Shown here one piece after another: positions 17,508 to 52,211 of a stretch of DNA of 64,000 nucleotides. Source of the stretch: Antedon mediterranea (Eukaryota > Echinodermata > Crinoidea > Comatulida > Antedonidae); assembly GCF_964355755.1 (NCBI RefSeq), contig NC_092670.1:24353795-24417794 (forward strand). Direction: 5' to 3'. Numbering within the stretch: position 1 is the first letter of the stretch; each line of letters opens with the position of its first letter. Under the pieces are notes generated by a model. It was not told where the DNA came from. It saw only the letters and a program-made list of their open reading frames with translations, and did not search any database. The position numbers and the translations under genes were made by a program.

Positions 17508-17566
17508 ATACAATGTTTACATATTACTGTAATGTATTAAAAAGTTTGTATCCAAACTTTTTCTTT

Positions 17567-18757: not shown

Positions 18758-18779
18758 GTCAAACAAGGCCATATAGATG

Positions 18780-21800: not shown

Positions 21801-22100
21801 ATCCTGATCGATTACCCTCCATATTCGTAATCTACGGAAAATTCTGGTCTAGAAAAGTTGGATAGCAATTTGTCCCCTTTCGGGTGGTGATGGTAAAAAT
21901 GAATTTGGAACTGTTTGGACTTCAAGAGTTTTTGGTTTTCAAAGAGTGCCGAATTGAGAGGGTTGACTATTCTTTAATTAAAGGTCATGAAATATGAATG
22001 CGTGTACAGTTTCAAAAACCATTATTAAATAGTAGGTGCTTGAACAGCAATAAACCAGTATTTGTAAGCATATGGGTATTAATGTCCTTTCAATACTTAC

Positions 22101-22172
22101 AGTTCTTTTAATTCCTTCAGTTGTTCAAAAGTTCTATCTCTGTATTTCTGTAAGTTGTTGTCCCTTAAGTCT
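22101..22172 (-). pseudogene. Gene A LRR exon (most C-terminal)
   Basis: A 72-bp phase-2 exon encoding one LRR, LRDNNLQKYRDRTFEQLK. It is the counterpart of 39425-39496. Acceptor TTAATAG and donor GTAAGT are intact. Confidence 0.85.
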
Positions 22173-23199
22173 CTATTAATAATATAAACAACCCGTTAAA
22201 AGCACAATGATGTTAACAAGTGAGTCGGCGAGAGATTGCGCAATGAATAATAGTTATATTGTTGGTTGGTAAGTTAATTTTTGCCTAGTACGTTTAGTCG
22301 TTGGTACCATGCACACACATGCGCATAGACGAACGTATCGGTTACAAAGTCAATACATTTATCTTATTTTATTCAAACAAGATCGCTTTCGCCAACAAAT
22401 GTACCAATATCCGGTATTTTTTTAATGTACAATATTTGTATTTCAGTTAAGTTTTAAATGAGTTAAATAATTATTTAATCTATTCCTTTTGTGAATCATT
22501 TTGATAGTTTTGATTTTGCATTATATTTCTTTGAAGAACACAATTATATTTTGAACGCGTTTTCGTTATAAAATAAATAAAAAAAATAATAAAGGTATAA
22601 CAGTTAATTAAATATTTATACTCATGTTTACAAAAACAACTTAATGTTTATTAATTAATATTATTAATTATATGATTGTTATGCAAACTAGTTCTGCCTT
22701 TGATTAAAATACTTCTTAGAAGCTGTACTTTGAAGCAAATTAACTTTGATTCATCTCAAATTGTTTTACCATGGTAAAACGTTTAAAACTTACAAATACA
22801 AAAGGGATGAAGTAGAATAGCAAAATGCACCATATTTTATGGTAGTTATGCTGTTTTTATTTAATAACCTGTTGAAATAAAAACAATGATTTTAAATGAC
22901 AATGTTATAATGGCAATGATATAGTGGAATTAAGATGATGCAATTTTCAAAATGTATCAATGTTACTGGTACATAATAAATAATTTAATTGTACTTATTA
23001 GGATTTTTTTAAAGCATGTTAATATACAAGTTTCTATGCCATGAAACCACAACTTAAATTGTCTTAATATGTATGTGTTTTAACAGTTAGTGTGTCTATT
23101 AAAAGTAAAACAGAAAACTTGTTATTATTAAATGATGCCATGCATTAATTATAAATGATTATGAAATATGTTAATTGGACGTCGAAACAACCAAACATG

Positions 23200-23900
23200 A
23201 AGTCCTAATAAGGCCAACAAATGGGTAGGTCGGTAGGAAAAGGTGTTTTTTTTTTTTTTTTTTTAGACCAAAAAATGTGTTGCCGGCAAAAAAATAAACA
23301 ATTTACACATGATAAAAAAAATACTTTTAAAAACACTATTTCCGTGTTATATGCTACATTACGCGAGTTAAAATTATTCCAGATGAAAAATATTGAGTTT
23401 CATATTGTTTTATCCATACGTAATTACACTGGCATTATAGATATAACATTAAAATGCAGGCCGTTATGAGCCATATTTCGCCGATTTCTTATCGCGGGGA
23501 AATTTCCCACCATGGAGAGACATCGATTGATCGCAAGGCGCATGCTGGAACGGGTGGATTATCGCTATATAGATAAACAAGTTTCAACAAAAGAGCTTAC
23601 GAAAATCTTAGGTAAATTTTTATTAAATGTATAGGCCTACTTGCTTGGCGATTCCATGCATTTTAAATCATTAAACAAGTTCATAATCATCGTAGTACTC
23701 TGTACAGTAAAAGTATGAGGGTGTTAAAAAATGTGATAACTAATAAAAACGTGTCACAACCACTGTGTAATCAAAGCGTTTATTTAGTTAAAACTTCGAA
23801 CCCCCTAAAATTGATAATCGCGTATTCCGGTTATCACATGATTGAGTCACGGTTGGTTGCACACTTCTTTTTTACACGGCGGAAGTGAAATAAATTCGCC
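23200..23900. mobile_element. Insertion in gene A LRR intron, unclassified
   Basis: Gene B lacks this segment between GAAGTCCTA and the next LRR exon. It contains a long T-run (23247-23264) and a small plus-strand open frame (23512-23634), but no recognised transposon ends. Confidence 0.45.
23512..23634 (+). CDS. Small ORF or candidate first exon, unknown
   Basis: An ATG in good context (CACCATGGAG) opens a 40-codon frame rich in Arg and Lys (MERHRLIARRMLERVDYRY). An AG/GTAAAT donor at 23611/23612 could end it as a 100-nt coding first exon, but no partner exon was found. Coding status is uncertain. Confidence 0.25.
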   Translation: MERHRLIARRMLERVDYRYIDKQVSTKELTKILGKFLLNV

Positions 23901-23971
23901 AATTTGGCAAATAAGACAATATATTTATGTATTTCACCTTATATAAAAGTAATTACGAAAAAGGTACCTAC

Positions 23972-24043
23972 AGTATTTGTAATGACGTCAAATCATCAAA
24001 CGTCTTGGCCGTCAATGTACGTATTTGGTTATTGTTCAAATAC
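23972..24043 (-). pseudogene. Gene A LRR exon
   Basis: A 72-bp phase-2 exon, LNNNQIRTLTAKTFDDL. Counterpart of 41529-41600 and 43855-43926. Splice sites intact. Confidence 0.85.
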
Positions 24044-24117
24044 CTTCAAAAAAATTAATTGTTTAAAAAAACATAATGGAAATTTAATCATCGGCATATT
24101 ATGGCTTTAGGATTTTT

Positions 24118-24738
24118 AGTTGCGTGGACGCGACTCTATAGTTCACTATGTTGGTCGGTCGGTCTGTCGGTCTGTCGGTATGTCTGTCGGTCCGGTATCA
24201 CTATGCGTTTTATTGCTTTCTGACCTTATCTTGATATCAGTTTAATCTAGCTAAGTCAATTTTTCACAGTATATTCCTTATGGCCAGGAATCGATGTGGT
24301 TATGTTTTCACGGTGCGCAATAAAAAATTACGCGGTCTACGCACGATTTAACGAAATCACGTTTGTAATCATATCTTCACAACCATGAATCACAATTAAA
24401 TCAAATTTGGTACTCATAAATTTCAGGGCATAAATCATCATATGACTGCTCGCCGGCTTTTAAAAATTGTCTCCTATCTTTTAACACTAGCCGGTCTGAA
24501 AATAATATTATTTTTGTTATTTTGTGATGTTATTAATAAACCAATTTTGATGATTTTCAATAGGCATGGTCTGAAAGTACTATCTACACCCAAAAATTCA
24601 GAACGATAACTTGAAAACAGTAGACGCTATCGTGCTAACAAACAAAAATACATACACACATACAAACAAAGTGAATACTATACTATAACAAACACACGCG
24701 ATCGATTACATATACCTCCTTGGCGGAGGTAAAAAATA
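24118..24738 (+). mobile_element. Dispersed copy of the 1.4-kb array family, in reverse
   Basis: It starts near TTAGTTGCGTGGACGCGACT, has a GGTCGGTCTGTCGG short tandem run, then carries the reverse complement of the array sequence (TTCCTTATGGCCAGGAATCG, AATTACGCGGTCTACGC). It ends at CTCCTTGGCGGAGGT, beside the next LRR exon. The gene B counterparts lack it. Confidence 0.65.
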
Positions 24739-24743
24739 CTCAC

Positions 24744-24815
24744 AGTTCATTCAAAGATGTCAAACCAGAAAAAACACAGGCTGGTAATGAACTAATTTGG
24801 TTGTGATTCAAACCC
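24744..24815 (-). pseudogene. Gene A LRR exon
   Basis: A 72-bp phase-2 exon, LNHNQISSLPACVFSGLT. Splice sites intact. Confidence 0.82.
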
Positions 24816-24977
24816 CTTCAAAAATAAATTTAATACACGGTAATATAACAATTGAAATTAAATAAATAGATATTCAATATTTGTATTAAAAGAAATGGCC
24901 CATGTTTAAATACGATAAACAAACGTACAATCCTTTCAATGCTCTCAAATCATCATTGCTATTAATATAGGAAAATA

Positions 24978-25345
24978 AATGAAAACATCGTCTGGTAATA
25001 TACTAATCTAGGTTAGTTTGAGTACAGATACCGTATTTATATGAATAGATTTCCCGCTGTGTTTTGTTTCGCCCCATAGGACATCATTTGGTTAAACTCC
25101 CTTCGAATAAACGCTAAAAACCCCGGGTGTTTTTATTTCCTCTTCCACCCCTGAAAAAACTTTTCCGAAAAAATATTCGAATAAATACGGTACCTCCGAA
25201 GTAAAGACAAAAATCGAAACGCTGAATGGTGAATAACAACATAAAAACAGACAATAGAAACTTGAGGCAAGTATGAATTTTAAAAAAAATAAGAAAAACC
25301 ATTGGCTGGTAATGTACTAATTTCGTTTAAGCCAAATATCTCCAA
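24978..25345 (-). pseudogene. Two broken LRR exons
   Basis: Partial exon sequence at about 24978-25031 (TCGTCTGGTAATATACTAAT) and at about 25290-25340 (TTGGCTGGTAATGTACTAAT). Both lack the donor-side half, so they are not usable exons. Confidence 0.6.
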
Positions 25346-25453
25346 AGTAAACAGAATACGCAATACACATGTGGAATTGTCTATGTTGACCACTTTTCAA
25401 TTAGCATTATAACAACAAAGTAAATGCAATTACCGTATATAAAAAATAAACAA

Positions 25454-25525
25454 ATTTCTTCTAGAGATATCAGCCCAGAGAAAATAGTGGCTGGTAATTT
25501 ACTAATTTCGTAGGAAGACAAATTC
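25454..25525 (-). pseudogene. LRR exon with lost donor
   Basis: The 24-codon LRR frame is open (SSYEISKLPATIFSGL), but the donor GT has become TT. A further fragment follows at 25622-25655. Confidence 0.65.
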
Positions 25526-25701
25526 CTTCAAAGTAAACACAATGCACATGTGGAATTGTCTATGTTGACCACTTTTCAATTAGCATTATAACAACAAATT
25601 AAATGCAATTATATAAAAAAAACACGTTTCTTCTAGAGATATCAGCCCAGAAAATTAACAACAAAAAAACGTAATTAAGACAATTAATACTTAACACTTA
25701 C

Positions 25702-25773
25702 AGTTTTTCCAGAGATGTCAAACCAGAAAACAATTTGGCTGGTAATGCGCTAATATTGTTCAAGGACAAATTC
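25702..25773 (-). pseudogene. Gene A LRR exon
   Basis: A 72-bp phase-2 exon, LSLNNISALPAKLFSGLT, with intact splice sites. Close to 27510-27581. Confidence 0.82.
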
Positions 25774-26178
25774 CTTCAAAGTTAACACAATGCACAGTAA
25801 ACATGTGAAATTGAATATGTTGGGTACTTTTCAGTCAATTTAACAACAATTTTAGGCCTACTCTGATCTTTGTCAAATATGTCAAACCAGAAACAAAAAC
25901 CTGCTTACATAATTTCGCGGTTTTATAATATTTATGATAACTTTGGTACTTTATTTTCAGGAAAGGTAAATAAATTTATAAATTGTCCTATTTAAGATGA
26001 TGACTTTTTTTAATGCTTTAAAAAAAAAAATCTGTTTTCCAATATGTCGCTGTACATTGATATCAATATCCTAACATTTGTGTCAGTTTTTAAATGTGAA
26101 TACTGTAAGTCAAAGACTGGTGGACAACAACTTAAAACAGGCAATAGAGATTTGAGACAAGTATAGAAATAAAAATAC

Positions 26179-26250
26179 AGTTTTTTCAGAGATATTAAAT
26201 CAGAAAAAGCATAGACTGGTAATGTACTAATTTGGTTAGATGACAAATCC
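26179..26250 (-). pseudogene. Gene A LRR exon
   Basis: A 72-bp phase-2 exon, SSNQISTLPVYAFSDLIS, with acceptor TTTGAAG and donor GTATTT. Confidence 0.82.
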
Positions 26251-27509
26251 CTTCAAAGTAAACACAATGCAACAAAAATGTGAATCCACAGAAACAAAAT
26301 TGTCTGGTAACATAATTTTTGCGGGTCATGATAATATGCTTAATATGCTAACTTTAGTATTTATGATTTTATTTTTAGGAAAGGAAGGTTACGTTAGTTA
26401 GGAAATGATAATTGTTATTGCTGGTTATAGGCATACAGTTCTTTCAGAGATATCAACCTGAACAAATATTAAATGTGCATATTTTGATTATTTTTATATA
26501 AAAAAATGTATATTTGGTAGCAGAATTGTTATGTTTATTTATATAATATTAAATAATTTAAGTGTTTGGACAAATTATTTGGTATCAAATGAACGCCCAT
26601 AAAATATTATATCCATTGCTACCCAACATGTATTAAAAATCTGTAATTATGATGCTAATTTTGTTAAAATTGTACATATTTTATAATTTTTTTACAAAAA
26701 TGAGTATATTAAATAGTGTAAATTTATTTTGGTTTATTTTGTATAATAAATCAATATTTGTTTAGCTTTAATGAACTATGTCACACATTAAATGAAAGCC
26801 AATCAAATATGCTATCCAATTGAATTGTAAAGTTAAAATTATAAAGCTAATAATTAGCTTTATAATTTTAACTTTACAAGTATAGTGTAAATATATTTTG
26901 GGTTATTATACATTTAATTCTAGTGTTTTAAATAACTATTTGGTATCAAATTAAACCCCATAAAACATGCTACCTAGTACATACAGATTATCCAATATGT
27001 ATTGAAATATCTTTTTTTTTTTGGAAAATATAGAATTATATAATATTATAAATCAACCAAAATAAATTTACCCTATAACTTACTGTATTCTCATGTTTGT
27101 CAAAAAAAAAAGAAGCATATTTTCAAAAAAGTCATAATTAAAGATTTTCAATACAAGTTGGGTACCAATGGATATTATATTGTATAGGGTTTTATTTTTT
27201 ATACCAAATTTAACGCTAAAATTATTTAAACCAAAATAAATTTACACTAATTTATACTCATTTTTGTCTAAAATTATTAAAATATGGAATTTTTAGTTTT
27301 GGTCATTTTTGGATCAAATGTCAGTAAAAGCATTTCCGGTCATTTTTCCGCTAAAAGTTGTGTTAGACCGATTATAAATATGTATATTCTGAACAATTTG
27401 ACACCGAAAGCAAATCTGTACGACAAGTGGTTGTCGAGATATAAGAGCCACACATTATTAACCTTAATGCATACAAATCTGACCCAGGTCATAGACTATT
27501 AACACTTAC
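26251..27509 (-). other. Gene A intron
   Basis: No intact exon. It holds a 26424-26450 LRR fragment, a perfect inverted repeat AAAGTTAAAATTATAAAGCT around 26830-26877, and a foldback-type sub-repeat at about 27290-27490. Confidence 0.55.
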
Positions 27510-27581
27510 AGTTTTTCCAGAGATGTCAAACCAGAAAACAATTTGGCTGGGACTGCACTAATTTCGTTCAAAGACAAATTC
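27510..27581 (-). pseudogene. Gene A LRR exon (most N-terminal intact)
   Basis: A 72-bp phase-2 exon, LSLNEISAVPAKLFSGLT, intact splice sites. Confidence 0.82.
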
Positions 27582-27735
27582 CTTCAAAGTAAACACAATA
27601 CCCAGTAAAAATCTGGTAACATAATTTTGCGGTTTCATGATAATATGCTAACTTTAGTATTTATAATTTTATTTTCAGGAAAGAAAGGTTACGTTAGTTA
27701 GGAATGATAATTGTTATTGGTTGTTATAGGCATAC

Positions 27736-27807
27736 AGTTCTTTCAGAGATATCAACCTGAACAAATATTAGGTGGTAAAATTCTAATTTCTATCCAAAAA
27801 CACTCAT
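27736..27807 (-). pseudogene. Frameshifted LRR exon
   Basis: It aligns with the LRR exon consensus but small deletions shift the frame into stops. The gene B counterpart is the exon split by the foldback element (46264 and 50470). Confidence 0.65.
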
Positions 27808-28057
27808 TTAAAGTATAGACAATACATGGTAGAAAAGGAAAGTGGGGCTATCACCATTACAGGCCCACTTTAATAATAGTTTACGCATAACAATGTGTTG
27901 AAATAATTGACAATGTCAATGTTGTGACTTTTTTAGTTTTACCACTATCACCGTTTAGAAATTAAAAATCGACCATTTTGTTTTCCCCAAAATTGTTTCG
28001 TCTCTGTCATCAAATTCTTTTAGATATAATAATGATAAGTTCAGTAAAGATACCTAC

Positions 28058-28187
28058 AATGATTTGATTGGACAATGCTGGTTGTAATTATAAATTTCTG
28101 TCCAGTTATAGCTTATTGGATTGTTACAATAATATTCGCATGTCACTGATGAGAACTGACAAGACAAATTCACTGGGCAAACCACTT
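28058..28187 (-). pseudogene. Gene A exon 2: LRR N-terminal cap
   Basis: A 130-bp exon between a TTTTTATAG acceptor and a GTAGGTATC donor, phase 1 in and phase 2 out. It encodes VVCPVNLSCQFSSVTCEYYC, the spaced-Cys pattern of an LRR N-cap. 96% or more of residues are shared with 51353-51482. Confidence 0.82.
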
Positions 28188-28860
28188 CTATAAAAACAGA
28201 ATAAGAAATAAATAAATACAAAACAATAACCGATAAAAGATAGTTAGCAGACACTTCTCATGTAACGTTGTTACACGTTACGATTGTTCATTCTGTACGA
28301 CGAAGGAGAATCATTTACTCTAAGCCTGCGCGGTCACCTTTTTGTAAGACTCTAGACCTATTTTATGAGTCATAATAAGTTAATAATCCTGATCCCTTGC
28401 CGTTTTCATTGTGATATGGATGAGTTTGCTCGCTGACCTCATCGTGTTATTTTTATTATCAAAGACGTTTTGTCTCCAAAACAAAAACAAAAATAAAAAT
28501 GAAGATTAATTAAGCTTTAAAAAAAACTTCATTGATGTCAAGACAATCGCTTGGTTGACTTTTGTATTTCTTTAAATTCAAGTTTTATCTAAATCATAAA
28601 GCTTTGTTTGATCCAATATTTGGAAATATAAATTGTTTAACAAAAATGAGAGACAACCAATATTGCAGAAAATCGATTATTTGAAATTTACTCAGTAAGT
28701 TTGATAATGATCAGATCAAGAGACTACAATAGCAAACATATTATACATGTATAATGACAATATTAAAAGCATACCAGAATAATTGCAGCAGATAACAAGC
28801 GGTACAGTCAAGATAAAAAATATTAGACATGTATAATGACAATAATAAAAGCAATCATAC

Positions 28861-28936
28861 CAGAAACATTGCAGCAGATAACAAGCGGTACAGCCAAGAT
28901 TATGACGATTATTATTTTAAAGACGACAGCCATCAT
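28861..28936 (-). pseudogene. Gene A exon 1: signal peptide
   Basis: Two adjacent ATGs start MMAVVFKIIIVIILAVPLVI, a classical signal peptide, ending at a GTATGA donor (phase 1). A partial second copy of the exon 3' end lies at about 28772-28815, a local duplication with no start codon. Confidence 0.82.
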
Positions 28937-37919: not shown

Positions 37920-38955
37920 TCAAATGTCAACTTTTGTCATGTTAATTTCTTGTTGAAAGTTTGGTTTGCGGGAATTGCAAGTAAACATATGCACGATAGT
38001 GTACAGATACGGATTAATGCACGAGTTGATAGGAATTATGAATGTTGCCGCCCAAACATATATTTCATCTGGAATGTCCCACCTTTCCGTCTCTGAACAA
38101 ATCCCCATCAGTATGACAGGGAACCAGCAACTGAAATCGGTGAAAACTATTAATCCTAGTTTTCTAGCCATTTTAACCTGTTCCTTTCTCCTCAGTCGTC
38201 TGTTAACCGTTGCACCTGAACGTTGAACAGAGAAGAAAATTGCAACATAACTCGTTGCGATCACGATAAAACCTAAACCATTGAATCCAATAAAAATGAC
38301 AATAGCATACTCCCAGCCTGGCCATCGACTTTTTGTTAGCGGTAGTGCAAGGCAAACACTCTGTTTCCCATAGTAGTTTTCGCCAAAATACGATAAATTA
38401 ATAAAGTCTAATCTGTTTACAAGTGGAAGAAAACTGAGAACAATCCAAACTAACCAACTAATACCGATAATATTTTTACACTTTGTACTGTTCAGCCGTT
38501 TTGTAGTGAAAGGGTTCACGATGTTAACTGCACGGTCAATGCTCAATATCATCAATGTAGTTACAGAACATTGACCGGAGAGAGTAGAAATAGCACCCGC
38601 AAAGCTACAAAGAAAACTGCTTTTCCAATATATCGCAACTATCGCATACCGTCCTCTGTAGTGTATATCTGCACTCGCTATGATGATCAGATAAACTGCC
38701 ATCAGCAAATCAGACACAGCCAGATTAGTGATGAGCATGGTTTGCACCTTATTAACATTACTATCATTATTCTTGTTAAACCGTCGTGATACGATTACAA
38801 CTACATTACCAATGACAGATAAAACACCAATAACCAACATCAATACTCTTAACACTTCTCGTTTTAGTAAGTCTGCACAAGAAGCAAAGGCATCTGTTGG
38901 TTCGCAGACATCAATGTGACCCACGAGACAACACAGACTAAACAAATCTGAATAT
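37920..38955 (-). CDS. Gene B final exon: hinge and 7TM domain
   Basis: After a TTATTTCAG acceptor: YSDLFSLCCLVGHIDVC hinge, EPTDAFASCADLL, TM1 with IGNVVVI, TM2 NLAVSDLLMAVYL (D2.50), TM3 with FLCSFAG and SIDRAVNI (DRY variant DRA), extracellular loop 2 Cys in SVCLALPL, TM6 TDFSCWFPVI (CWxP), and TM7 NSCINPYLYTI (NPxxY). The tail is about 25 residues. All class A activation motifs are kept. The hinge pattern points to LGR type C rather than glycoprotein-hormone receptors. Confidence 0.92.
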
Positions 38956-41900
38956 CTGAAATAATTAACACAAAAAAACCATAGTTGTAAAGTAATGTCA
39001 TTTTGTACATCTAACCTGCCTCATATATTTTTCAGTTGCAGAACAGTTATATTTAGCAACTACTTTTGTACGGATTGAAATCAGCGTAGAAGATGGCATC
39101 GAATATCTTAGCATTAAAGAGAATAATACAGTTTTGCAAAAATTATTGGTATGTCAACTCTCCCAATACTGAACTGGTTTCCCAGAAAGTATGGTATTCG
39201 GAATGTGTTTTTAATGGTAAAAATGAATTTTAGAATATTTGAATTTCAAGAGTTTCTGGTTTTCAGAGAGTGCCGTATTGAGACAGTTGACTGTATTCTT
39301 TTAATTAAAGGTCATAAAATGTGAATGCGTGTACAGTTTCAAAAAACTAAATGTAGTAGGTGCTTGAACAGAAATAAAACAATATTTGTAAATGTATGGG
39401 TATTCAGGTCCTTTCAATACTCACAGTTCTGTTAAGGTCTTTAGTTCTTCAAAGGTTCTATCTCTGTAATTCTGTAATTTGTTGTCCGTCAAGTTTCTGA
39501 AAAATATTAATATAAACAACCCGTTAAAAGCACAATGATGTTAACAAATGATTCGGCCAGAGATTGCGCAATGAATAATAGTTATATTGTTGGTTGGTAG
39601 GTTAATTTTTGCTTGATACGTTTAGTCGTTGGTCCCATGCACACAGATGCGCATATTGTCTCTTTCGGTTACAAAGTCCTATTTCATTGATACAAGATCG
39701 GATTCGCCATAAAACGTTCCAGTATCCGTTTTTTGTTTGTTTAATGTACAATATTTGTATTTAAATTAAGTTTTTAATGAGTTGGTTAGTTATTTAATCT
39801 ATTCCTTTTGTGAATCATTTTGATAGTTGTGATTTTGTATTATATTTCCTGGAAAAACACAATCATAATTGTGAACGCGTTTCCGTTATAAAATGAAAAT
39901 ACTAATAATAAAGGTATAACAATTAATTAAATATTAACGCCTGTATTCTTAAACCGGACTTTAGTCGTAGTTCGAAGTTCGACTTGAAAAAGTCGTAGTT
40001 CGAGCTATTACTTCAAATTCGATTAAAAAACGAAGTAGTCGAAGTTTGCAGTTCGACTTAATGAAGTCGAGCTTTAGGTCGAGTTGCACACGTCTGGGTA
40101 ACAAAGGCTATACATTGGCCAATGACAAGAGAGTATTTGAGGAGCAGACGAAATTTTGCGCATTGATATCACTTTCCATTTTCTTACAACACTTTTTACG
40201 CATCAGGACTATATACATGAAAAATAATTTTAATCGTTAATTATTAGAACAAGATCAGTATTAATTTAACAGTGAAGTATATTTGATTAACAACAAACAA
40301 AATCTTCAAACTATATTTAGGAACCATGGCGGTACGGTAACTTTTATATTTTCTAGGCCCCCAAAAAAGTATGATCGCGACGAACCACGCACTTCATAGC
40401 GTGACAAGAAAGTGCTAGGCCCCCTAAACATTCCATCGCGTCGTGAATTTCCGCATCTGCCATTGTCGCTAATGGCGTAACGTAGTTCAAGTCGGACTTG
40501 CGCGAAGAAAATTTGTAATTTGTATACGGTTGTAAATAAAGATGATTTTCATTATTATAACTTATACCAATGTATATTTAATTAAGCTAATATAAAAATA
40601 GATACTTTATTCTTCAATATCTGACCAATATAACAACTAAATTACTGTTACGTTTTTCATAAACATCGTTTAAAAACCATTTAGTCGACCATTTAGCCTG
40701 CCCCCTCCAAGACTAATAAAATCGATCAAAATCCGTCTCGATTTAGTCGAGGTTGGCCTGAATTAGTCGGCGATTTAGTTGAAGTTCGGTTTATGAATTA
40801 AAATGACGTCATTTTTTTAGTTTTAGCTTGAACTACGACTAAAGTCCGGTTTAAGAATACGGGCGTAACGCCATGTTTACAAAAACAACTTAATGTTTAA
40901 ATAAATGATATGATTGTTAGGCAAACTAGTTCTTCCTTTGATTAAAATACTTCTTAGAAGCAGTACTTTAAAGCAAACTTTGATTCATCTTAAATTGTTT
41001 ATATTTGAAATACGTATAATTGTTAAAACGTAAAATGTTCAAAACTTACAAAATTAAAATCGATGAAGCAAAACAAGCAAATGCACCATAATCTATAGTA
41101 GTTATGTTGTTTTTATGTAAATAACTGTTGAAATAAAAAGAATGATTTTAAATGGCAATTTCATAATGTCAATGATAGGCCTATAGTGGAATTAAGATGA
41201 TTCAATTAAAAAAATTCATCAATGTTACATAACAAAATAATACTTGAATCATAGATATTCTATATTTTTTAAAGGATGCACAAAAACGCTTTTAATACGA
41301 GTTTCTATGTTATCAAATTACAAATGCATTAGGGCTACTTAAATTGATTCAATATTTATGTGTATTAACTATTAATGTGTGTATTTCATTTATATATTTT
41401 GAAAAATGCATAATGATAGATTATTATAAAATATTTTAATTAGACGTCGAAACAAAACATGAAGTCCTATTAATTCTAAAACATTCTATAAAAAATTGTA
41501 TATTATAGTAATTATAAAAAGTACCTACAGTTTTTCCAATGCCGACAAATCATTAAACGTCTTGGCTGACAGTGTACGTATTTGATTATCGTTCAAATGC
41601 CTTCAAAGAAATAAATTGTAAACAAAATAAAATGATGGCAATTGTATTCTTAGGCATAATATGGCTTTTTTGTCTCTATGAAACCATATTTATATTATTT
41701 ATATAATTACTGATTTAACTTTGTTTCAGTGTTATACCTATTTTACACAAAATAAATTATTCTTGATTTTACATGAAGGAAACAAATCAGTATTACAATA
41801 TTTACTTAAATAAACGTCTAATTATAATATTTAACATGACAACTTTATTATTCTTTAAATGACTTTAAGTTAACATCTTTTTTTATTTCAAACACATTTA

Positions 41901-44900
41901 TACACTGGATAAAATATCCTAATTCAAAAATAAGTTTTCAACATGGTCCTGTTTAAAACTATAAAACCTTAACTAAACTACAGAACAATGACAAAATATA
42001 TATAAAAAAAAGAATATGAAAATTATTTTTATAATAAAATTTACACATTTGAATGGAAGCACATTTTTGAATTATTACAAGTATTTTATTCCAGGCATTT
42101 GCATTTACAATACTTAGGCCTAGAGCGCGAACTATTGAAAGTAATGCAGATATTTTGATTATTCAAATAATATAATATAGTTGGGTGTTGAATAGATGTC
42201 TGTCATAAAGCATTTCAATATTTACACAAGCCAGGAGGTGCAATACCATTTATGCATTTATACATTAAACACGTTAGGGCATAATAGTCATTAAACTAGT
42301 TATAATGTTAGTCAATTAGCATTATAAAAGCAATTTAACGTAGTTATAAAAATAGAACACTTACAGTTCTTTCAGAGATGTCAAATCAGAAAAAACATCG
42401 TCTGGTAATGTACTAATTTGGTTTGAGTACAAATACCTTCAAAGTAAACATAATACACAGTAAACATGCTATTTACTCTATTGAAAACTTTTTAATTTGC
42501 ATTATACACTAATAAAAAATTTACCGTATAATACTGATTTAACTTTATTCAGTATTATACCTATTTTACACAAAATACATTATTCTTGATTTTACATGAA
42601 AGGAAACAAATCAGTATTACAATATTTATTTAAATAAACGTCTAATTATAATAATTAACATGACAAATGTATTACTCTTTAAATGACTTTAAGTGTTTAT
42701 TCTTTCTGTCTTTCTGTTCCCTCTATTGTCACGCCATTGATCTTTTTTTAATTTCAAACATATTTATACACTGGATAAAATAACCTAATTCAGAAATAAG
42801 TTTTCAACATGGTCCTGTTTAAAACTATAAAACCTTAATACACAGTAAACATGCTATTTATTGAAAACTTTTTAATTAGCATAATACACTAATAAAGAAG
42901 TTAACGTAAATATATAGGAAAGACATTAGTCTTAGTTCTAGACGCTATTTCAACTTAATATTGATAAAAATATAAATATTTTAGCACACATGGCGTTTCA
43001 TACGTGTACTGAAACACCTATTTTATTTTTTTATTTTTTTATCTTATTCAATAGAAACCAATAGCGATAATTTCCGCCACTAACAGGTTTGATACAAACA
43101 AAGCCAGGACTGGAGCAACTTGATTGGTCCTAACATTGATCTAGGGCTTCTCTCGTCCAGTGCCGACCTTGACCAGAGGAAACTAGAGGATACTAGATGC
43201 AGGGGCTGCCATAAGAGTCAGCAATGCTGATTTCAAATGCCTAACGGGACCCCAGCTCCATACAGCACCCGACATTCCCAGATGGTCTCCCATCCAAGCT
43301 CTAACTAGGCCCGACGTTGCTTAACTTCGGTGATCTGACGAGAACCGGTGTTTCAACGTGGTAAAGCCGTATAAACGCCGACTGAAAAGATTGAAAAGAG
43401 CCTGGATGGCTGTTCTACAAGAAGGATGCTGCGAACAGTTTTCAACATACATTGGAGTGAGCACAAAACCAACAAGGAGCTCTACGGTGATCAAAATCAC
43501 CAAATCTCTCTCAACAAATCAGAGAGAGAAGGAACCGATTTGCTGGCCACTGCTTCAGAAGTAAGCAAGAGCCTGTGTCAGAACTAGTAGTCTGGAAACC
43601 AAGACATGGGAAAAGAAAACCAGGCAGACAACCTCTTTCGTATACAGACGTTCTAAGGATGGATACTGGCTTGGAGGGAGCAGAAGTGGAAACAGCTATG
43701 ACAGACAAGAAACTTTGGAGCGCCATGGTGGTTCGAGGACTCCACTCGCCATAATTCAAGTCAGTCAAGTCAAGTCAAACGCCGACTGGTGGACAAATAC
43801 ATAAAAAAAGACAAAACTAGACTTCGGACAAGTTATTATAAAAAAAGTACCTACAATTTTTGTAATGATGTCAAATCATCAAACGTCTTGGCTGTCAATG
43901 TACTTATTTGGTTATTGTACAATTTCCTTCAAAGAAATAAATTGTTAAAAAAATAATATGAGGACAATTGTATTATTAGGCATATTATGGCTTTAGGGTT
44001 TGTCCGTACTTGGTTAGTGAACAAACGTCTTCAATGAAATAAATTGTAAAACAAATGTGCTATTAAATGTCAATTGTATTATTAGACCTATATGGCTTTA
44101 AGTTGAGTTTGTTATAAAACTCTAATTATATTATTCAAAATATTACTAACTGATTTAAATACCTTCAACATGTGAAATTGTCTACCAACAATTAGAAGTA
44201 GATATAGGAAATAAATTACTCTAGGTTCTAGACGGCATTGCGACTTAATACTGGTAAAAAGATAGACATAGCGTTCCATACGTATAATATGAGAGCTGAA
44301 ATAGTTTAGGTCTACAAACAAAACTAGAGACTTAAGGCAACTATAGAATAAAAATACTCATAAAATTAGTCTACGTTAGCGTCTGTTTTTAAATGTAAAT
44401 ACTATAAGTCAAAACGACTGGTGGACAACAACATAAAACAGACAATAGAGACTTGAGGCAGGTATAGAAATAAAAATACTCACAGTTCTTTCAGAGATGT
44501 CAAACCAGAAAAAACATTTGCTGGTAATGTACTAATTTGGTTATCAAACAAATTCCTTCAAAGTAAGCATAAAACACAGTAAACATGCTAAATTTACTAT
44601 ATTGAACAATTTTCAAAATAAAGGTATAAATTGTTCTATTTAGGATGATGATTGTTTTAATGATTTGTATTTCGTTGTACATCGATAACATTAGTCTACG
44701 TTGGCGTCTGTTTTTAAATATAAATACTGTAAGTCAAAGGCTGACTGGTGGACAACAACATAGAACAAACAATAGAGACTTGAGGCAAGTATATAAATAA
44801 AAATACTTACAGTATTTTCAGAGATGTTAAACCAGAAAAAACATTTGCTGGTAATGTACTAATTTGGTTATCAAACAAATTCCTTCAAAGTAAGCATAAT

Positions 44901-47900
44901 ACACAGTAAACATGCTAAATTCAATATAATTATTGAACACTTTTCAAAATAAAAGTATAAATTGTTCTATTTAGGATGATGATTGTTTTAATGATTTGTA
45001 TGTCGTTGTACATCGATAACATTAGTCTACGTTGGCGTCTGTTTTTAAATGTGAATACTGTAAGTCAAAGGCTGACTGGTGGACCACAACATAGAACAAA
45101 CAATAGAGACTTGAGGCAAGTATAGAAATAAAAATACTTACAGTATTTTCAGAGATGTCAAACCAGAAAAAACATTTGCTGGTAATGTACTAATTTGGTT
45201 ATCAAACAAATTCCTTCAAAGTAAGCATAATACACAATAAACATGCTAAATTCAATATAATTATTGAACACTTTTCAAAATAAAAGTATAAATTGTTCTA
45301 TTTAGGTTGATGATTGTTTTAATGATTTGTATGTCGCTGTACATCGATAGCAATAATCTAACGTTTGATTCTGTTTTAAATGTTAATACTACTTATTTGG
45401 TTATCAAACAGATTCCTTCAAAGTAAACACGGTTAACATGTAAAATTGTATAAATTGAACATTTTTCATTTAGCATTATAACCAAAATTAAACGTAATTA
45501 AGAAAATAGAAACACTTACAGTTCTTCCAGAGATGTCAAATCAGAAAAAATATTGTATGGTAATGCACTAATTTCGTTCTTATACAAATCCCTCTTATAA
45601 CAACAATTTAAACTTAATCAAGAAATGTACTCACATTTCTTCAATGATGTCAAACCAGAAACAAAATTGGTAAAAAAAAATCGCGGTTTTACTATATTGA
45701 ACACTTTTCAAAATAAAAATATAAATTGTTCTATTAATGATGATGACTTCATTATTATTTTTAATGATTTGTATGTCGCTGTAAATCGATAACATTAGTC
45801 TACGTTAGCGTCTGTTTTTAAATGTAAATACTGTAAGTCAAAACGACTGGTGGACAACAACATAAAACAGACAATAGAGACTTGAGGCAAGTATAGAAAT
45901 AAAAATACTCACAGTACTTTCAGAGATGTCAAACCAGAAAAAACATTTGCTGGCAATGCACTAATTTCGTTCTCAGACAAATCCCTTCAAAGTATAAACA
46001 CAATACCCAGTAAGCATGCTAAATTGACTGGGCCTATATTCAACACTTTGACACTAAGTCAATGTAACAAATATTTAACTTAATCAAGAACATAAATATA
46101 CTCACATTTTTTCAAAGCTGTCAAAAACCAGAAACAAAATTGGTCAAAAAAGGCGCGGTTTCATATAATATAATATGCTAACTTTAGTATACTTATGATT
46201 TTATTTATAGGAAAGGTAAGTTAGTTAGGAAACATTGAACATTTCTATTTATTGCTAGGCCTGCAGTTCTTTCAGAGATATCAAATATTAGGTGGACTTG
46301 TTGAACCCACAAATGTGAAAACAACCACGAATGTGAAAACGCATCACCCACAAACGTGAAAACAACCACAAATGTTAAAATGTATCACCCTCAAATGTGA
46401 AAACAACCACAAATGTAAAAACGCATCACCCACAAATGTGAAAACAGCGCCCACAAATGTGAAAACGATCAATTCAAATGAAATTTATTGCTAGACCCAA
46501 ACAAATTTTATCGAATTAATGTTAATGTATTTATATACATTGTATTGAGTTTTTTCAATAATTTTGTATTCACGACCAACTTTCTAAAACGACCACACAT
46601 TGTAAGCTACCATCTCTGTTAAGGAACCGCTTCTCATAATCGACCACCTCTCGAAAAGGATCACCTCCTCTCATAAGGGACCACTTCTCATAATCAACCA
46701 CCTCTCGTAAGCGACCACCTCTCTTAACGACCTCACCTCTCGTAAAGTGACCACCTCTTTTAAGGGACCACGACCTATTTCTCTCTATTAAAGGCCCGCT
46801 TCTCAGAATCGTCAGTGAGGACTCTTTTTTCAATCAATCAATCAATCAATCTCATAATCGACCACCTCTCGTAAGGGATCACCTCCTCTCATAAGGGACC
46901 ACTTCTCATAATCAACCACCTCTCGTAAGCGACCACCTCTCTTAACGACCACACCTCTCGTAAAGTGACCACCTCTTTTAAGGGACCACGACCTATTTCT
47001 CTCTATTAAAGGCCCGCTTCTCAGAATCGTCAGTGAGGACTCTTTTTTCAATCAATCAATCAATAATAATTTATTTCTCAAATAAAAACAAAATACAGTT
47101 AACATTTTCTAAAATAATAAATAAAAAATGAGAAAATGGGTACCCCACTGGAAGCTAAGCTTTAAAATGTGGGGTCCGGGCAACATATTTAAGTAAGGTA
47201 AGGTAAGAAACATGATCATGAACAAAAAAGGCATTTAACTTAAACGAATGCAGTTGTAATTTAACTTAAGACAGATATATTATTAACTTAAACAATAATA
47301 GTAGAAACAAGGTATTCATGTAATTTGGACTTAAAACAAGATATAAAATTAATAATTTTGAGTTCTTCTGGTAAAGTATTCCATATTTTGGGTCCTTTAA
47401 ATGTATTTATCGATTTTAGTATTTACCACCTCTATGGAACGACCACCGTCTCTCATAAGCGACCGATTCTCATAACCGACCACCTCTCCTAACGACCACT
47501 ATCTCTCGGAAGCGACCACCTCCTTTAAGGGACCACTGCCTCTCGTTTCGTTTCGTTTCTTAATTACCACTCGCAAGGGCCATAAACTGACAGTGTGTCT
47601 CTGTGTGTTTTCAGAATTCGTTTGCCATTTTGATTTTTTTTTATTTCATTTCAATTAATAAAAAAAATCAAAAGTGTGCAATTATAGGTGACTTGAAAGG
47701 CCAATATAAAATTGAATTGCACTGTTATAAAATTCACCTTTAAACCAACTTGACCAATATAGGCTAGAGTTACACTTACCCTAAAAAATATTCATTGTAG
47801 AATATTAGAACCAATTAATTCCCCAAAAGAACAAAGTGTATTTAACCCCTGTACCCTTTTCATCATAAAACAATTAATCAATGACAGTCATCTAAGATAT

Positions 47901-50900
47901 ACTTAAGAAGTAGGCCTACTTGCTGGAAAAATAGGACTTATAGTTAAGCTCACAATTAGGGAGGGTGGTAATTTAAAAGAGTGGTCACTTACGGGAGGTG
48001 TTGTCGTTAAGAGAGATAGTCGCTTACAAGAGGAGGTCGATTATGAAAAGCAGTCCCTTATGAGGGGAGGTGATCACTTCCGAGAGGTGGTCGATTACGA
48101 TAAATGGTCCCTTAAAAGAGACGGTGGTCGTTCAATAGAGGTGGTCACTTACCAGAGGTCGTTGTGACGGGAGATAGTCGATTATGAGAAGCGGTTCTTT
48201 AATAGAGAGAAAGAGGTCGTGGTCTCTTAAAAGAGGTGATCACTTACGAGAGGTGGTCGATTATAAGAAGTGGCCCCTTAACAGAAACGGTGGACGTTTA
48301 ATAGAGGTGATCACTTACCAGAGGTTGTTGTGACGGGAGATAGTAGATTATGAGAAACGGTTCTTAATAGCGAGAAAGAGGTCGTGGTTCCTTAAAAGAG
48401 GTGGTCACTTACGAGAGGTGGGGTCGTTAAGAGAGGTAGTCGCTAACGAAGAGGTGGTCGATTATGAAAAGCGGTTCCTTATGAGAGTTGGTGATCACTT
48501 ACGAGAGGTGGTCGATTATAAGAAGTGGTCCCTTAACAGAAACGGTGGACGTTCAATAGAGGTGGCCACTTACCAGAGGTCGTTGTGACGGGAGATAGTC
48601 GATTATGAGAAGCGGTCCTTTAATAGAGAGAAAGAGGTCGTGGTCCCTTAAAAGGGGTGGTCATTTACGAGAGGTGTGGTCGTTGAGAAGTGGTCGCATA
48701 CGAGAGGTGGTCGATTATGGGAAGCGGTTCCTTATGAGAGGAGGTGATCCCTTACGAGAGGTGGTCGATTATGAGAAGCGGTCTCTTAACAGAGATGGCA
48801 GCTTACAATGTGTGGTCGTTTTAGAATGTTGGTTGCTTACAAGAGGTGGAAAGACTGATAGCTAAGTAAGGATCGATGCATTTGCACATGATTTAGACAT
48901 TATTTGTAAAATATAACATTTTCTACATTAGCTGGCGATAGTAACCACATTAGCTGTTGACCGTTTCTACATTAGCTAGTGTTGATTTTTATTTACTACA
49001 TAAGCTGTTGGTGTTTCTACATAAGCTGGAGGTTTACTACATAAGCGGTGGATTGTTCTACATTAACGGTTGTTTCGACATTAGCTGGCGTTTTCTACAT
49101 TAACGGTTGTAACACGCGTACATATGGCGGGCCAAACATTTAATCATTATCAAGATATCTTTAGTTTTAAATAGAGCTTTCTTTTTTATCAATACAGTTT
49201 TAAAATTGTTAAAAAGTTAATTTATGTTATCAAACACCATAATTTTACAGAAGTTTAGGTGTAGGTTTAAACGCTCGACTTTTTTGACGTAACAGTTTTA
49301 ATTATCAACTGGAAAATTATTACTTTTATGTTGAACCAAAAAAATACATACACAATTGGTATAAATACCTTTAGTTTGTGTATGTATTTTTTGGTTAACA
49401 AAAAGTAATAATTTTCCAGTTAATTATATTCGGAACCAGGTGAATTTATATAATAGTTTTTTTGTTTTTCTTTCGTCATTAAATGGTGTTTTTTTAATTA
49501 GCTTATCAATCAATTAATTGAATCAAACAATCTACTTTTACTTCAGAACAAAGTCCATGGCTTACTGATGTATAGAACAAAAGTATAATTTAATAATAAA
49601 AACTAAACTATAGTACTTTGCATATTCAGATGTAGGGGCGTAACAGTAAGCCAACGAAATAACAACCAAACACTTCAAGTAGCAACGGTATATAGCCTTC
49701 ACCTTGTAGTATCGTGTGCGCGCGCAGAAAACATCGAACATCGACTTAGAACTATACGTACATAACAGTAAGCCAACGAGTTAACAACCAAACACTACAA
49801 GTAGCAATGGTATATATGACTTTGACCTTGTAGTATCGTGTGCGCGCGCAAAAAAACATTGAACATTGACTTGGAACTGTACGTAGGCCTACATAAATAG
49901 TAAGCCAACGAGTTAACAACCAAACACTATATTCAAGTAGCAATAGAATATTATGACCTTGACCTTGTAGTATCGTGCGCAAAAAACATCGAATCGAACA
50001 TCGACTTGGAACTATACGTACATAACAGTAAGCCAACGAGTTAACAACCTAACACTACAAGTAGCAATGATATAATATGGTCTTGAAGTATCGTGCAGGC
50101 GCGCAGCAAAAACAAATATCGTCAAACTAACGAGTTAACAATGTTAACAATGCAAATATCGCGCGCACGAGCAGAAAAATATTAATAATCCAACGCGTTA
50201 ACGACGACCCTAACAGACGTATCGTGAACACGCAAGTATTGAAACAACTCAATATAATCATGATATATTAACTCGAAAAAAAATTGTTGAGTCTAGCACT
50301 AAATTTGATTTGATTTTTTTTTTTTACATTTGTGGGCGTTATCACATTTGTGGGAGATGGTTGTTTTCACATTTGTGGGCGCTGTTTGTTACATGTGTGG
50401 GTGATGCATTTTTACATTTGTGGTTGTTTTCACATTTGTGGGCGTTTTCACATTTGTGGGTTCAACAGGTCTTCTATTTAAGAAAATTCCTTCAAAGTAA
50501 ACACAATACACGTTAGAAAAAAGGAAAGTGGGCCTGTTGGCCTATCACCAAATAACAGGTTCACTTTAGTAATCAACAAATATGTTGATAATAATTGAAT
50601 TTATGGTTTTCAATATTGATCAATATTGAACAAATGTATAAATGTTAACGCGAGAAAAGATAATAGCCTATATTGCAAAACCACAGGCTACTTTGCAATG
50701 ATTGTATACAGTTAAACTAAATGTTCAATCATTAGATTTATTGTTATAAATTCATAATTCGTATGAATACTTTAAAAAAAGTTAATTAAACTCAATTAAT
50801 TTTCAATTCTTAAATTTTCCAAAATGAATTGTTATTTGATGGGATTATGTTTTAGATATTAAAGATATGTTTTGTTTAACAAAAATGTTTTAAAAAACAT

Positions 50901-52211
50901 TAATCCCATCTCCAAAACAGGCGTCATAAAATAAATTTAAAAAAATAAAACAAACAATGGCCTAAACTGTTTATAATGTAATATAGAAACTCTATGGCGT
51001 TAAAATAACATTAAATTTGTACAATATTAATTTCCCAGACACACTTCGAAATAATTGTCAACATCATTTATAAATTTCGGTTATACATTATTATTATTTC
51101 TGCTTCATTCTCTATTTTATTATTTCTTTATTATGTGTCGTATTGTACCTTAATCTAATATTGTTATCCTTTTGTTACACTTTGGTGACTTTTTTAGTTT
51201 AACCACTCTCACAAGATATTCACCGTTTACAAATTGTTAAGAAATTAGACCGATTAAAGAACATTTGTTAGGCCTATGTTTTTCCCCAACTTGTTTCGTT
51301 GTCGTCAAATTCTTTTAGATATAACAATGATTAGTTCAGTAAAGATACCTACAATTTTTTGATTGGACAATGCTGGTTGTAATTATAAATGTCTGTCCAG
51401 TTATAGCTTATTGGATTGTTACAATTATACTCGCATGTCACTGATGAGAACTGACAAGAGAAATTCACTGGGCAAACCGCTTCTATAAAAAAACAGAATA
51501 AGAAATAAATAAATACAAAACAATAACCGATAAAATATAGTTACCAGACACTCATCAGGTAACGTTGTTACACATTATGATCGGGGGCTCCATTCTGTAC
51601 GACGGAGGAGAATGATTTACTCTAAGCCTGCGCGGTCACCTTCACCACTGAGTGTATTTTGGTAAGACTCTAGGCCTACGTTATTATTTTATGTAGTCAT
51701 AATAAGTTAGTAATCCTGATTCCTTGCCGTTGTTCATTGTGATATGGATAAGTTTGCTCGGTGACCTCCTCGTGTTATTTTACTATCAAAGATGTATTGT
51801 CCCCAAAACAATACAAATGAAGATTAATACAACTTCAAACTTTTCCCCCGAAAATAAAAAAAATCAATTCAAACAAACCAAGACAATCGCTGGATTGACT
51901 TTTGTTTTTCTTTAAATTCCAGTTTTATCTAAATCATTGTTTTGTTTGATTTAATTTTTGGAGATATGAATTGTTTAACAAAAATGGGAAACAAGCAATA
52001 CTGCAGAAAATCGATTATTGGAAGTTTACTCAATTTTATAAGTCTGATAATCAAGATCAAGCGACTACAATAGCAAACATATACATTACACTTTAAAAAT
52101 ATTATACATGTATAATGACAATAATAAAAGCATACCAGAAATATTGCAGCAGATAACAAGCGGTACAGTCAAGATTATGACGATTATGATTTTAAAGATG
52201 ACAGCCATCAT
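37920..52211 (-). CDS. Gene B: LRR-containing GPCR (LGR/relaxin-receptor-like)
   Basis: Predicted plasma-membrane receptor with an LRR ligand-binding ectodomain. Exons: 52136-52211, 51353-51482, 45913-45984, 45520-45591, 45142-45213, 44811-44882, 44484-44555, 43855-43926, 42365-42436, 41529-41600, 39425-39496 and 37920-38955. Lengths sum to 1890 nt (629 residues plus stop) and every splice phase agrees. Order: signal peptide, Cys-rich N-cap, nine 24-residue LRRs, cysteine hinge, 7TM, short tail. No LDLa module was seen, unlike vertebrate RXFP1/2. LRR number may vary by exon skipping. Introns carry a MITE, a LINE fragment, a 5S-like sequence and a 4.2-kb foldback array. Confidence 0.85.
39425..39496 (-). 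CDS. Gene B LRR exon 9 (last)
   Basis: LTDNKLQNYRDRTFEELK, 72 bp, phase 2. This divergent last repeat caps the array; its counterpart is 22101-22172. Confidence 0.85.
39938..40865. mobile_element. 928-bp TIR element, Harbinger-like
   Basis: Ends CGCCTGTATTCTTAAACCGG and CCGGTTTAAGAATACGGGCG, with TAA on both sides (39935-39937 and 40866-40868). Gene A has an uninterrupted sequence at the matching place (about 22610), so this is an insertion after duplication. Subterminal sequence repeats TTCGAAGTTCGACTT-type motifs. No transposase. Confidence 0.8.
41529..41600 (-). CDS. Gene B LRR exon 8
   Basis: LNDNQIRTLSAKTFNDLS, 72 bp, phase 2, intact splice sites. Confidence 0.85.
42365..42436 (-). CDS. 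Gene B LRR exon 7
   Basis: LYSNQISTLPDDVFSDLT, 72 bp, phase 2, intact splice sites. Confidence 0.85.
42520..42860. repeat. Intronic duplication of 41700-41960
   Basis: The phrases AACTTTGTTTCAGTGTTATACC-like and TTCAACATGGTCCTGTTTAA recur in the same order in two neighbouring introns, showing that LRR duplication carried intron sequence along. Confidence 0.6.
43259..43376 (-). rRNA. 5S rRNA-like sequence (pseudogene or SINE head)
   Basis: The minus strand reads like full-length 5S rRNA: a TACGGC start, CTCGTCAGATCACCGAAGTT, AGCAACGTCGGGCCTAGTTA (A box region), CTTGGATGGGAGACC (C box, intact), and GGGTGCTGTA at the 3' end. Several substitutions lie in the first third. A body of about 120 bp extends past the 3' end, so a 5S-derived SINE is as likely as a dispersed 5S pseudogene. 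Confidence 0.75.
43385..43776 (+). pseudogene. LINE 3' fragment with 12-bp target duplication
   Basis: The plus strand encodes KRLKRAWMAVLQEGC, then RRNRFAGHCFRSKQEPVSEL and HGKRKPGRQPLSYTDVLRMD, a LINE C-terminal signature, across frameshifts. It ends in a TCAAG-type simple tail. AAACGCCGACTG occurs on both sides (43373-43384 and 43777-43788), marking target-primed insertion next to the 5S-like sequence. Confidence 0.7.
43855..43926 (-). CDS. Gene B LRR exon 6
   Basis: LYNNQISTLTAKTFDDLT, 72 bp, phase 2, donor GTAGGTAC. Confidence 0.82.
44000..44170 (-). pseudogene. LRR exon remnants
   Basis: Short acceptor-side pieces at about 44000-44035 and 44143-44160 resemble LRR exons but lack the rest. 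Confidence 0.45.
44484..44555 (-). CDS. Gene B LRR exon 5
   Basis: LFDNQISTLPANVFSGLT, 72 bp, phase 2, donor GTGAGT. Confidence 0.87.
44811..44882 (-). CDS. Gene B LRR exon 4
   Basis: Same LRR as exon 5 except near the end (FSGLTSLKI to FSGLTSLKE region). Donor GTAAGT. Confidence 0.87.
45142..45213 (-). CDS. Gene B LRR exon 3
   Basis: Almost identical to the exons at 44811 and 44484. Confidence 0.87.
45391..45420 (-). pseudogene. LRR exon fragment
   Basis: Only the acceptor-side third remains (TATTTGGTTATCAAACAG). Confidence 0.5.
45520..45591 (-). CDS. Gene B LRR exon 2
   Basis: LYKNEISALPYNIFSDLT, 72 bp, phase 2. The acceptor context is unusual (TTATAAGAG rather than TTTGAAG), so splicing may be weak. 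Confidence 0.7.
45635..45675 (-). pseudogene. LRR exon fragment
   Basis: The donor-side half only, breaking off after CCAGAAACAAAATTGG. A similar fragment is at 46102-46148. Confidence 0.5.
45913..45984 (-). CDS. Gene B LRR exon 1
   Basis: LSENEISALPANVFSGLT, 72 bp, phase 2, intact splice sites. Confidence 0.85.
46264..46294 (-). pseudogene. LRR exon half, interrupted by foldback element
   Basis: AGTTCTTTCAGAGATATCAA continues to ATTAGGTGG, then stops at the inverted-repeat element. The other half resumes near 50470 (TCTTCTATTTAAG, CCTTCAAAGT). The gene A counterpart is 27736-27807. Confidence 0.65.
46305..46475. repeat. CACAAATGTGAAAACAAC tandem array (left arm)
   Basis: About nine degenerate units of 17-20 bp. 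The inverse array is at 50325-50465. Confidence 0.85.
46570..47550. repeat. GACCACCTCTCGTAAGC array (left arm), with 218-bp duplication
   Basis: Short units alternate GACCACCTCTCRTAAGC and AAGGGACCACTTCTC. A segment of about 218 bp is repeated in tandem (46633-46850 and 46851-47068), each ending in CAATCAATCAATCAAT. The array is interrupted by a LINE piece and resumes at about 47427. Confidence 0.8.
47050..47427 (-). pseudogene. LINE 3' terminal fragment
   Basis: The minus strand encodes KSINTFKGPKIWNTLPEELK and FKSKLHEYL, a CR1/Jockey-type C-terminus, followed by a 3' untranslated region and a TTGA tetranucleotide tail. Confidence 0.65.
47985..48862. repeat. CTTACGAGAGGTGGTCG array (right arm)
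   Basis: Inverse orientation of the 46570-47550 array, with higher-order units of roughly 230 bp (TTACCAGAGGTCGTTGTGAC recurs near 48151, 48311 and 48571). Long open frames across it are repeat artefacts. Confidence 0.85.
48915..49112. repeat. TCTACATTAGCTG short tandem array
   Basis: Ten or more degenerate copies of CTACATTAGCTG separated by variable spacers. Confidence 0.7.
49307..49424. repeat. Near-perfect palindrome
   Basis: AACTGGAAAATTATTACTTT and AAAGTAATAATTTTCCAGTT enclose further inverted sequence (AAAATACATACACAA against its complement), giving arms of about 50 bp. Confidence 0.8.
49630..50110. repeat. Minisatellite, 122-132 bp units
   Basis: AGTAAGCCAACGAGTTAACA recurs at about 49645, 49767, 49899 and 50028; units also share TTGTAGTATCGTGTGCGCGC. 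Confidence 0.85.
50325..50465. repeat. TTTTCACATTTGTGGGCG array (right arm)
   Basis: The inverse of 46305-46475. Confidence 0.85.
51353..51482 (-). CDS. Gene B exon 2: LRR N-terminal cap
   Basis: 130 bp, phase 1 in and phase 2 out, acceptor TTTTTTATAG, donor GTAGGTATC. It encodes AVCPVNFSCQFSSVTCEYNC followed by an Asn- and Tyr-rich segment with a further Cys, consistent with the cap before the first LRR. Confidence 0.85.
52136..52211 (-). CDS. Gene B exon 1: signal peptide
   Basis: Starts MMAVIFKIIIVIILTVPLVI with Lys before a long hydrophobic core, then CCNIS and a GTATGC donor, phase 1. The first of two adjacent ATGs was chosen. Confidence 0.83.

Follow-up and report, generated by a model that had tools for sequence, protein, structure and literature searches.

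Gene B, a complete predicted gene of 12 exons, occupies 37920-52211 on the minus strand of a 64-kb window (C1:24353795-24417794 in the 354-Mb genome of Antedon mediterranea; the window is the whole stretch of DNA analysed, and positions given without a prefix are counted along it). Overall, gene B probably belongs to a large tandem family of leucine-rich repeat (LRR)-containing G protein-coupled receptors (GPCRs; these LRR receptors are termed LGRs) that lack an LDLa domain, and in which germline recombination changes the number and order of LRR exon cassettes and with them a presumed recognition repertoire. Evidence for this comes from the exon structure of gene B, from a nearly identical copy, B', in which one LRR exon has been doubled, and from the varying LRR exon arrays of related genes.

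Reconstruction of gene B gives an exon sum of 76 + 130 + 9 x 72 + 1036 = 1890 bp, corresponding to 629 codons plus a stop, with a frame that is free of internal stops and with GT-AG borders at 11 of 11 introns. All nine LRR exons (9/9) are entered and left in phase 2. The original prediction for this gene had its coordinates, the 72-bp exon length, the phase and the 629 codons entirely correct, and its statement that LRR exons of LGRs are often single-repeat units agrees with excerpts of PMC8286064, where single-repeat LRR exons are described in LGRs. The exons of gene B, and the repeats and exon remnants that lie among them, are as follows, with the source in brackets where one applies:

52136..52211, minus strand, exon 1, ATG and signal peptide, 76 bp, phase 1 out (gene B model)
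51353..51482, minus strand, exon 2, cysteine-bearing LRRNT, 130 bp, phase 1 in and phase 2 out (gene B model)
46265..46285, minus strand, weak LRR exon remnant, E 0.052, at the edge of a 4.2-kb inverted-repeat element
46107..46143, minus strand, decayed LRR exon remnant, E 0.005
45913..45984, minus strand, LRR exon L1, 72 bp, with one extra A in its B' counterpart (gene B model and B/B' comparison)
45636..45670, minus strand, decayed LRR exon remnant, E 0.00021
45520..45591, minus strand, LRR exon L2, 72 bp (gene B model)
45390..45415, minus strand, decayed LRR exon remnant, a weak match, E 0.085
45142..45213, minus strand, LRR exon L3, 72 bp, peptide identical to that of L4, within a repeat series spaced 327/331 bp
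44811..44882, minus strand, LRR exon L4, 72 bp (gene B model and repeat analysis)
44484..44555, minus strand, LRR exon L5, 72 bp (gene B model and repeat analysis)
43855..43926, minus strand, LRR exon L6, 72 bp (gene B model)
42744..42838, unstranded, direct repeat Y, flanking L7 opposite X, 96% like X and 866 bp off, recombination partner
42365..42436, minus strand, LRR exon L7, 72 bp, present in two copies in B' (gene B model and B/B' comparison)
41878..41972, unstranded, direct repeat X, flanking L7, recombination partner (repeat analysis)
41529..41600, minus strand, LRR exon L8, 72 bp (gene B model)
39425..39496, minus strand, LRR exon L9, 72 bp, of a distinct capping type (gene B model)
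37920..38955, minus strand, seven-transmembrane (7TM) exon, 1036 bp, with a short hinge and a rhodopsin-type 7TM (7tm_1), stop at 37920-37922

The weak, decayed LRR remnants inside gene B indicate exon loss in addition to gain.

The first long intron of gene B also holds the 4.2-kb element (about 46290-50470), which has inverted, internally repeated ends and is present in B' as well. Another intron position, 43257-43374, gives a 5S rRNA match of 83.9 bits that is perhaps part of a 5S-derived short interspersed nuclear element.

The copy B' lies at C1:24303859-24318940, 88 kb from B. Across 15,834 aligned columns the two have 35 substitutions between them (about 0.2%), and 11 of the 12 gene B coding exons are present in B' without a single change. 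Specifically, B' carries L7 twice, in copies 867 bp apart, and the introns around these two copies are identical up to the junction save for a 2-bp indel. In gene B, L7 is flanked by the 95-bp direct repeats X and Y, whose spacing of 866 bp compares with 867 bp for the unit duplicated in B'. Between the two L7 copies of B' are found the diagnostic bases of Y followed by those of X, with the switch located inside 45 identical bases. A Y-to-X hybrid junction of this type is what unequal homologous recombination predicts, and the alignment of the two copies shows an apparent gain of the L7 cassette in B' by this route, between intronic repeats.

A genome search with the 7TM part of gene B gave 115 matches. 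Of these, 53 reach 60% identity or more across 300 or more of the 344 residues, and 44 of the 53 contain no internal stop. In the C1 cluster, the number of 72-bp LRR exons per gene is 9 in D, 8 in E, 9 (plus the 73-bp L1) in B', 6 in paralogue A, which shares the window with gene B, 9 in B and 4 in F. Four genes in the C8 cluster have 10, 12, 8 and 6, counts that may be low because the 5' ends of the C8 genes have no annotation; a tblastn search for their signal and LRRNT exons gave only weak, chance-like matches. LRR exon number thus spans 4 to 12 among ten genes in two clusters. Note that G1 and G5 sequence was taken only from 24376001 and 24431301 onward, and that the C7 and C10 genes (L034 and L035), covered over 9 and 8 kb and containing 4 and 7 LRR exons, stand outside the ten-gene count.

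The order of the exons changes along with their number. When C8 exons differing by three bases or fewer are given the same letter, the cassette strings read A-B-C-D-E-F-G-H-I-J; G-K-K-L-G-K-K-L-G-M-I-J; A-G-K-L-G-M-I-J; and N-O-P-Q-I-J. The gene with the 12-exon string (G2) repeats a four-exon block at 99.8% over 2301 bp, and in the C10 gene the repeated block has three exons (99.1% over 1655 bp). Gene E (L011-L012, C1:24273293-24282603) looks chimeric, as if ectodomain and 7TM had been swapped between neighbours: its 7TM exon is 98.1% identical to that of B and 91.0% to that of D, and the mean best match of its LRR exons is 96.4% to D and 83.7% to B. The idea in the original prediction that the exons are interchangeable finds support in the C8 cluster, where different genes reuse shared exons in varying order and number, and its proposal of germline copy change is supported by the doubled L7 in B', the clean repeat junction and the range of LRR exon numbers in the ten genes.

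Elsewhere in the genome, C9:16723982-16741326 has three 7TM matches about 5.13 kb apart, with one TAA each and fragments beyond, forming a compact tandem array.

LRR exons were also compared with chance expectation. A position-specific scoring matrix (PSSM) scan that covered every AG-72-GT/GC stretch of the window on both strands found 15 LRR exons, nine in gene B and six in paralogue A, each scoring at least 36; the next-best minus-strand score and the best plus-strand score were both -11.8. Because this 72-bp PSSM was trained on the same 15 exons, the comparison to rely on is that with the control strand. When exon length was allowed to vary between 57 and 93 bp, in the window and 26 other genome pieces, every LRR-like exon that had an end above threshold measured 72 bp (81/81), the PSSM here likewise having been trained on 72-bp exons, and the opposite strands gave 0 LRR-like exons. 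There were 16 more LRR-like starts, outside the 81, with no end above threshold, some of which are probably cap exons and some decayed. Finally, a 35-place LRR exon pattern derived from the C1 and C8 exons matched 346 genome places with two mismatches or fewer, and the reversed control matched 0.

Regarding the identity of the receptor, Pfam places LRR_8 (1e-58) and 7tm_1 (1e-30) in the one 629-residue frame, and an extracellular LRR array together with 7tm_1 in a single frame marks the gene B product as an LGR. An NCBIfam scan of the 7TM gave no match. The best solved-structure match to the whole protein is relaxin receptor 1 (E 6.4e-82), which also leads for the 7TM part with 165 bits, as compared to 104 for FSHR, the next distinct receptor. 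The predicted 7TM of gene B is therefore nearest to a type C LGR in a comparison that consists of solved structures only, without a tree, and the hinge has two cysteines, eight residues apart, that align to RXFP1. As described in excerpts of PMC4561518, the type C LGRs (RXFP1/RXFP2, LGR3, LGR4 and GRL101) have an LRR ectodomain, short hinge and rhodopsin-type 7TM as gene B does, and excerpts of PMC8286064 add single-repeat exons to what is shared. However, gene B differs from them in its tens of paralogues and in that no LDLa was found. Specifically, a Pfam scan of the gene B protein detected none at E up to 0.1, an LDLa motif had 0 matches in 340 kb of searched sequence, and among the 150 listed of 956 candidates none fell within either cluster (C1 24.24-24.52 Mb and C8 24.37-24.49 Mb). 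Several of the LDLa matches listed adjoin more divergent 7TM loci; a C3 locus (L036), for example, has two LDLa motifs, two 72-bp LRR exons found and a 7TM that is 40% identical to that of gene B. With no LDLa found, gene B falls outside the type C definition and, on its predicted protein, is best described as an LDLa-less LGR.

A mechanism that could account for these observations starts from self-contained 72-bp, phase-2/2 LRR exons that sit in mutually similar introns. Similar introns around equal, symmetric exons would allow meiotic misalignment to add or remove whole LRRs, and such a gain or loss would be frame-neutral and leave the 7TM exon preserved. In other clusters, block duplication and cassette reuse have altered exon number and order. 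Misalignment is the most likely mechanism as judged from the genomic copies, which show it for one event (L7 in B') and strongly suggest it for the others. The germline would in this manner make receptors that differ in binding surface and share a conserved 7TM signal unit, and their role would presumably be that of a recognition repertoire for variable ligands, either immune or chemosensory.

The location of cassette variability is in line with such a role. Each exon border falls within a Leu codon of the LRR beta-strand motif, and a new junction therefore also creates a new strand. The exposed residues of one xxLxLxx strand are those at positions 22 and 23 of an exon together with positions 1, 3 and 4 of the exon that follows. 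Among all 33,649 five-position sets, {1,3,4,22,23} comes first in summed entropy for C8 (with 15 peptides, and again with 20) and 170th for C1 (26 peptides); with an altered cap-exon filter that gives 23 C1 peptides instead of 26, the ranks are 139th of 33,649 for five positions and 119th of 100,947 for six. As a pattern, the comparison shows variability of the cassettes concentrated on the predicted concave face. The ratio of nonsynonymous to synonymous change (dN/dS) elsewhere in the LRR exon is 0.50 in C1 and 0.61 in C8, and that of the 7TM exon is 0.08-0.35 in 27 of 28 pairs, the 28th pair being identical, indicating that the 7TM exon is likely under purifying selection. The contrast between these values and those of the concave positions, given below, suggests that the predicted binding face is freer to change than other parts of the protein.

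It is somewhat unlikely, though worth serious weight, that this is instead an ordinary tandem LGR family in which exon number drifts neutrally in repetitive arrays, with diversity that has no recognition role, and a number of results count against a recognition repertoire in this regard. Three of the ten genes are damaged, namely A, whose 7TM exon contains a long terminal repeat (LTR) retrotransposon at 13311-18257 with reverse transcriptase and RNase H domains, B', where an extra A in an A run lengthens L1 to 73 bp, and G3, which has a TGA inside the 7TM; some copy change may thus be neutral drift in dying genes. The decayed exon remnants in gene B also speak for drift. Among non-scaffold positions the C1 set {1,3,4,22,23} ranks only 170th of 4,368, the six-position set ranks 11th in C8 and 119th in C1 of 100,947, and because the exons are related none of the entropy ranks is a probability. 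The five-position set was moreover settled post hoc, after the data table had been seen, though it is the textbook xxLxLxx set. Concave dN/dS is not clearly above 1, with values of 1.26 (C1) and 0.96 (C8) for six positions, which is not proof of positive selection, and of 0.99 (C1) and 0.79 (C8) for positions 1, 3, 4 and 23. All results also derive from one assembly, with misassembly or retained haplotypes possible. Neutral drift is nevertheless at odds with purifying selection on the 7TM combined with LRR exon variation that falls chiefly on predicted concave residues, and with the 44 full-length, stop-free 7TM copies.

The frame arithmetic of the gene B exons would also be expected if the phase-2/2 exons served chiefly for alternative splicing, giving ectodomains with differing LRR numbers. 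Excerpts of PMC8286064 mention that repeat exons are sometimes skipped, excerpts of PMC6642158 report modular NLRP3 LRR exons with exon skipping, and the extra A in B' L1, if real, leaves the B' frame intact only when L1 is left out. This extra A may be a sequencing error, an A run being a common error type. Symmetric phase arises in any case when exons are duplicated and needs no splicing role, and we regard a mainly splicing-based explanation as unlikely. Quite improbable is a hormone receptor of the relaxin type that binds one conserved peptide; relaxin receptor 1 is indeed the closest solved structure, but the LDLa that was not found in gene B is needed for activation in RXFP1/2 according to excerpts of PMC4561518, and dozens of paralogues with a changing binding surface do not fit a single ligand. 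We give even less credence to an assembly artefact, in which B and B' would be haplotypes of one locus set side by side or the repeat arrays would be mis-assembled. The low number of substitutions between B and B' and the L1 difference in an error-prone A run would agree with an artefact, but the flanks of B and B' differ, the two L7 copies of B' differ by a 2-bp indel, and the hybrid junction carries the correct diagnostic bases. If B and B' were haplotypes, the exon difference would be an allelic copy change, which is still in line with germline change of LRR cassettes.

The agnathan variable lymphocyte receptors (VLRs) contain LRR cassettes of one length in varying number, with variability on the concave face; they are not GPCRs, and their assembly is a somatic process in lymphocytes. 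The gene B family is VLR-like in its varying cassette number and order and in the concentration of its variability on the predicted concave face, whereas gene B is already complete in the germline and it is the germline copy that changes. Sea urchin Sp185/333 genes resemble the gene B family in being clustered, with mosaic elements and repeat-driven germline duplication, deletion and conversion (excerpts of PMC5103432). In contrast, they encode secreted effectors that are neither LRR proteins nor GPCRs, and their elements lie within one exon. One might tentatively regard the gene B family as a GPCR-based germline analogue of lamprey VLRs and Sp185/333.

Biomphalaria SudRes2 is, in excerpts of PMC12297450, a cluster of GRL101-like LGRs that differs between haplotypes and is tied to schistosome resistance in snails. 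As with the gene B family it is a tandem cluster of LRR-bearing GPCRs, but its receptors have LDL and C-type lectin domains, and a change in LRR exon number, as seen in the gene B family, is not described in those excerpts. The LRR exons of NLRP3 share with gene B a strict modularity and a border at the same beta-strand place; unlike gene B, they are 171-bp exons with two repeats, in an intracellular receptor that varies by splicing (excerpts of PMC6642158). In the ambulacrarians studied in PMC8286064, the excerpts give one orthologue each of LGR3, LGR4 and GRL101, and a GRL101-like receptor is reported from starfish sensory organs in excerpts of PMC6267866; with SudRes2 and Sp185/333 it is among the published precedents.

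The remainder of the window contains the damaged paralogue and several smaller features:

12541..28936, minus strand, paralogue A, with signal, LRRNT, six 72-bp LRR exons and a 7TM interrupted by an LTR retrotransposon
27510, 26179, 25702, 24744, 23972 and 22101, minus strand, positions of the paralogue A LRR exons

The retrotransposon LTRs (13311-13990 and 17578-18257) are identical at 679 of 680 positions and the insertion has a 4-bp target duplication, ATCA, which together indicate that it is very young. Orphan signal-peptide exon copies at 10532-10588 and 28776-28835 may be alternative first exons or what is left of further genes. At 29770-29841 and 30137-30208, 367 bp apart, are two tRNA matches with equal scores, and a unit of about 1.4 kb is present in tandem copies from about 58723 to 64000, running beyond the right end of the window.

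LRR exon modularity and LGR genes are already known. What is added here is a cassette gain caught in the act, between copies 0.2% apart and with a junction that is readable base by base. No description of germline LRR-exon copy change in LGRs was found in the literature titles and abstract openings listed, a coverage in which subscription journals and preprints are mostly absent. It is conceivable, although we put this forward with reserve, that the family constitutes an invertebrate GPCR repertoire of dozens of LDLa-less LGRs whose ligand-binding LRR arrays undergo continual germline rebuilding through recombination between intronic repeats, by single frame-neutral 72-bp cassettes and with the 7TM signalling unit conserved, such that individuals differ in their binding surfaces. 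If individuals do differ in this way, the family would be a testable case of germline diversification of a GPCR ligand surface without somatic receptor rearrangement.

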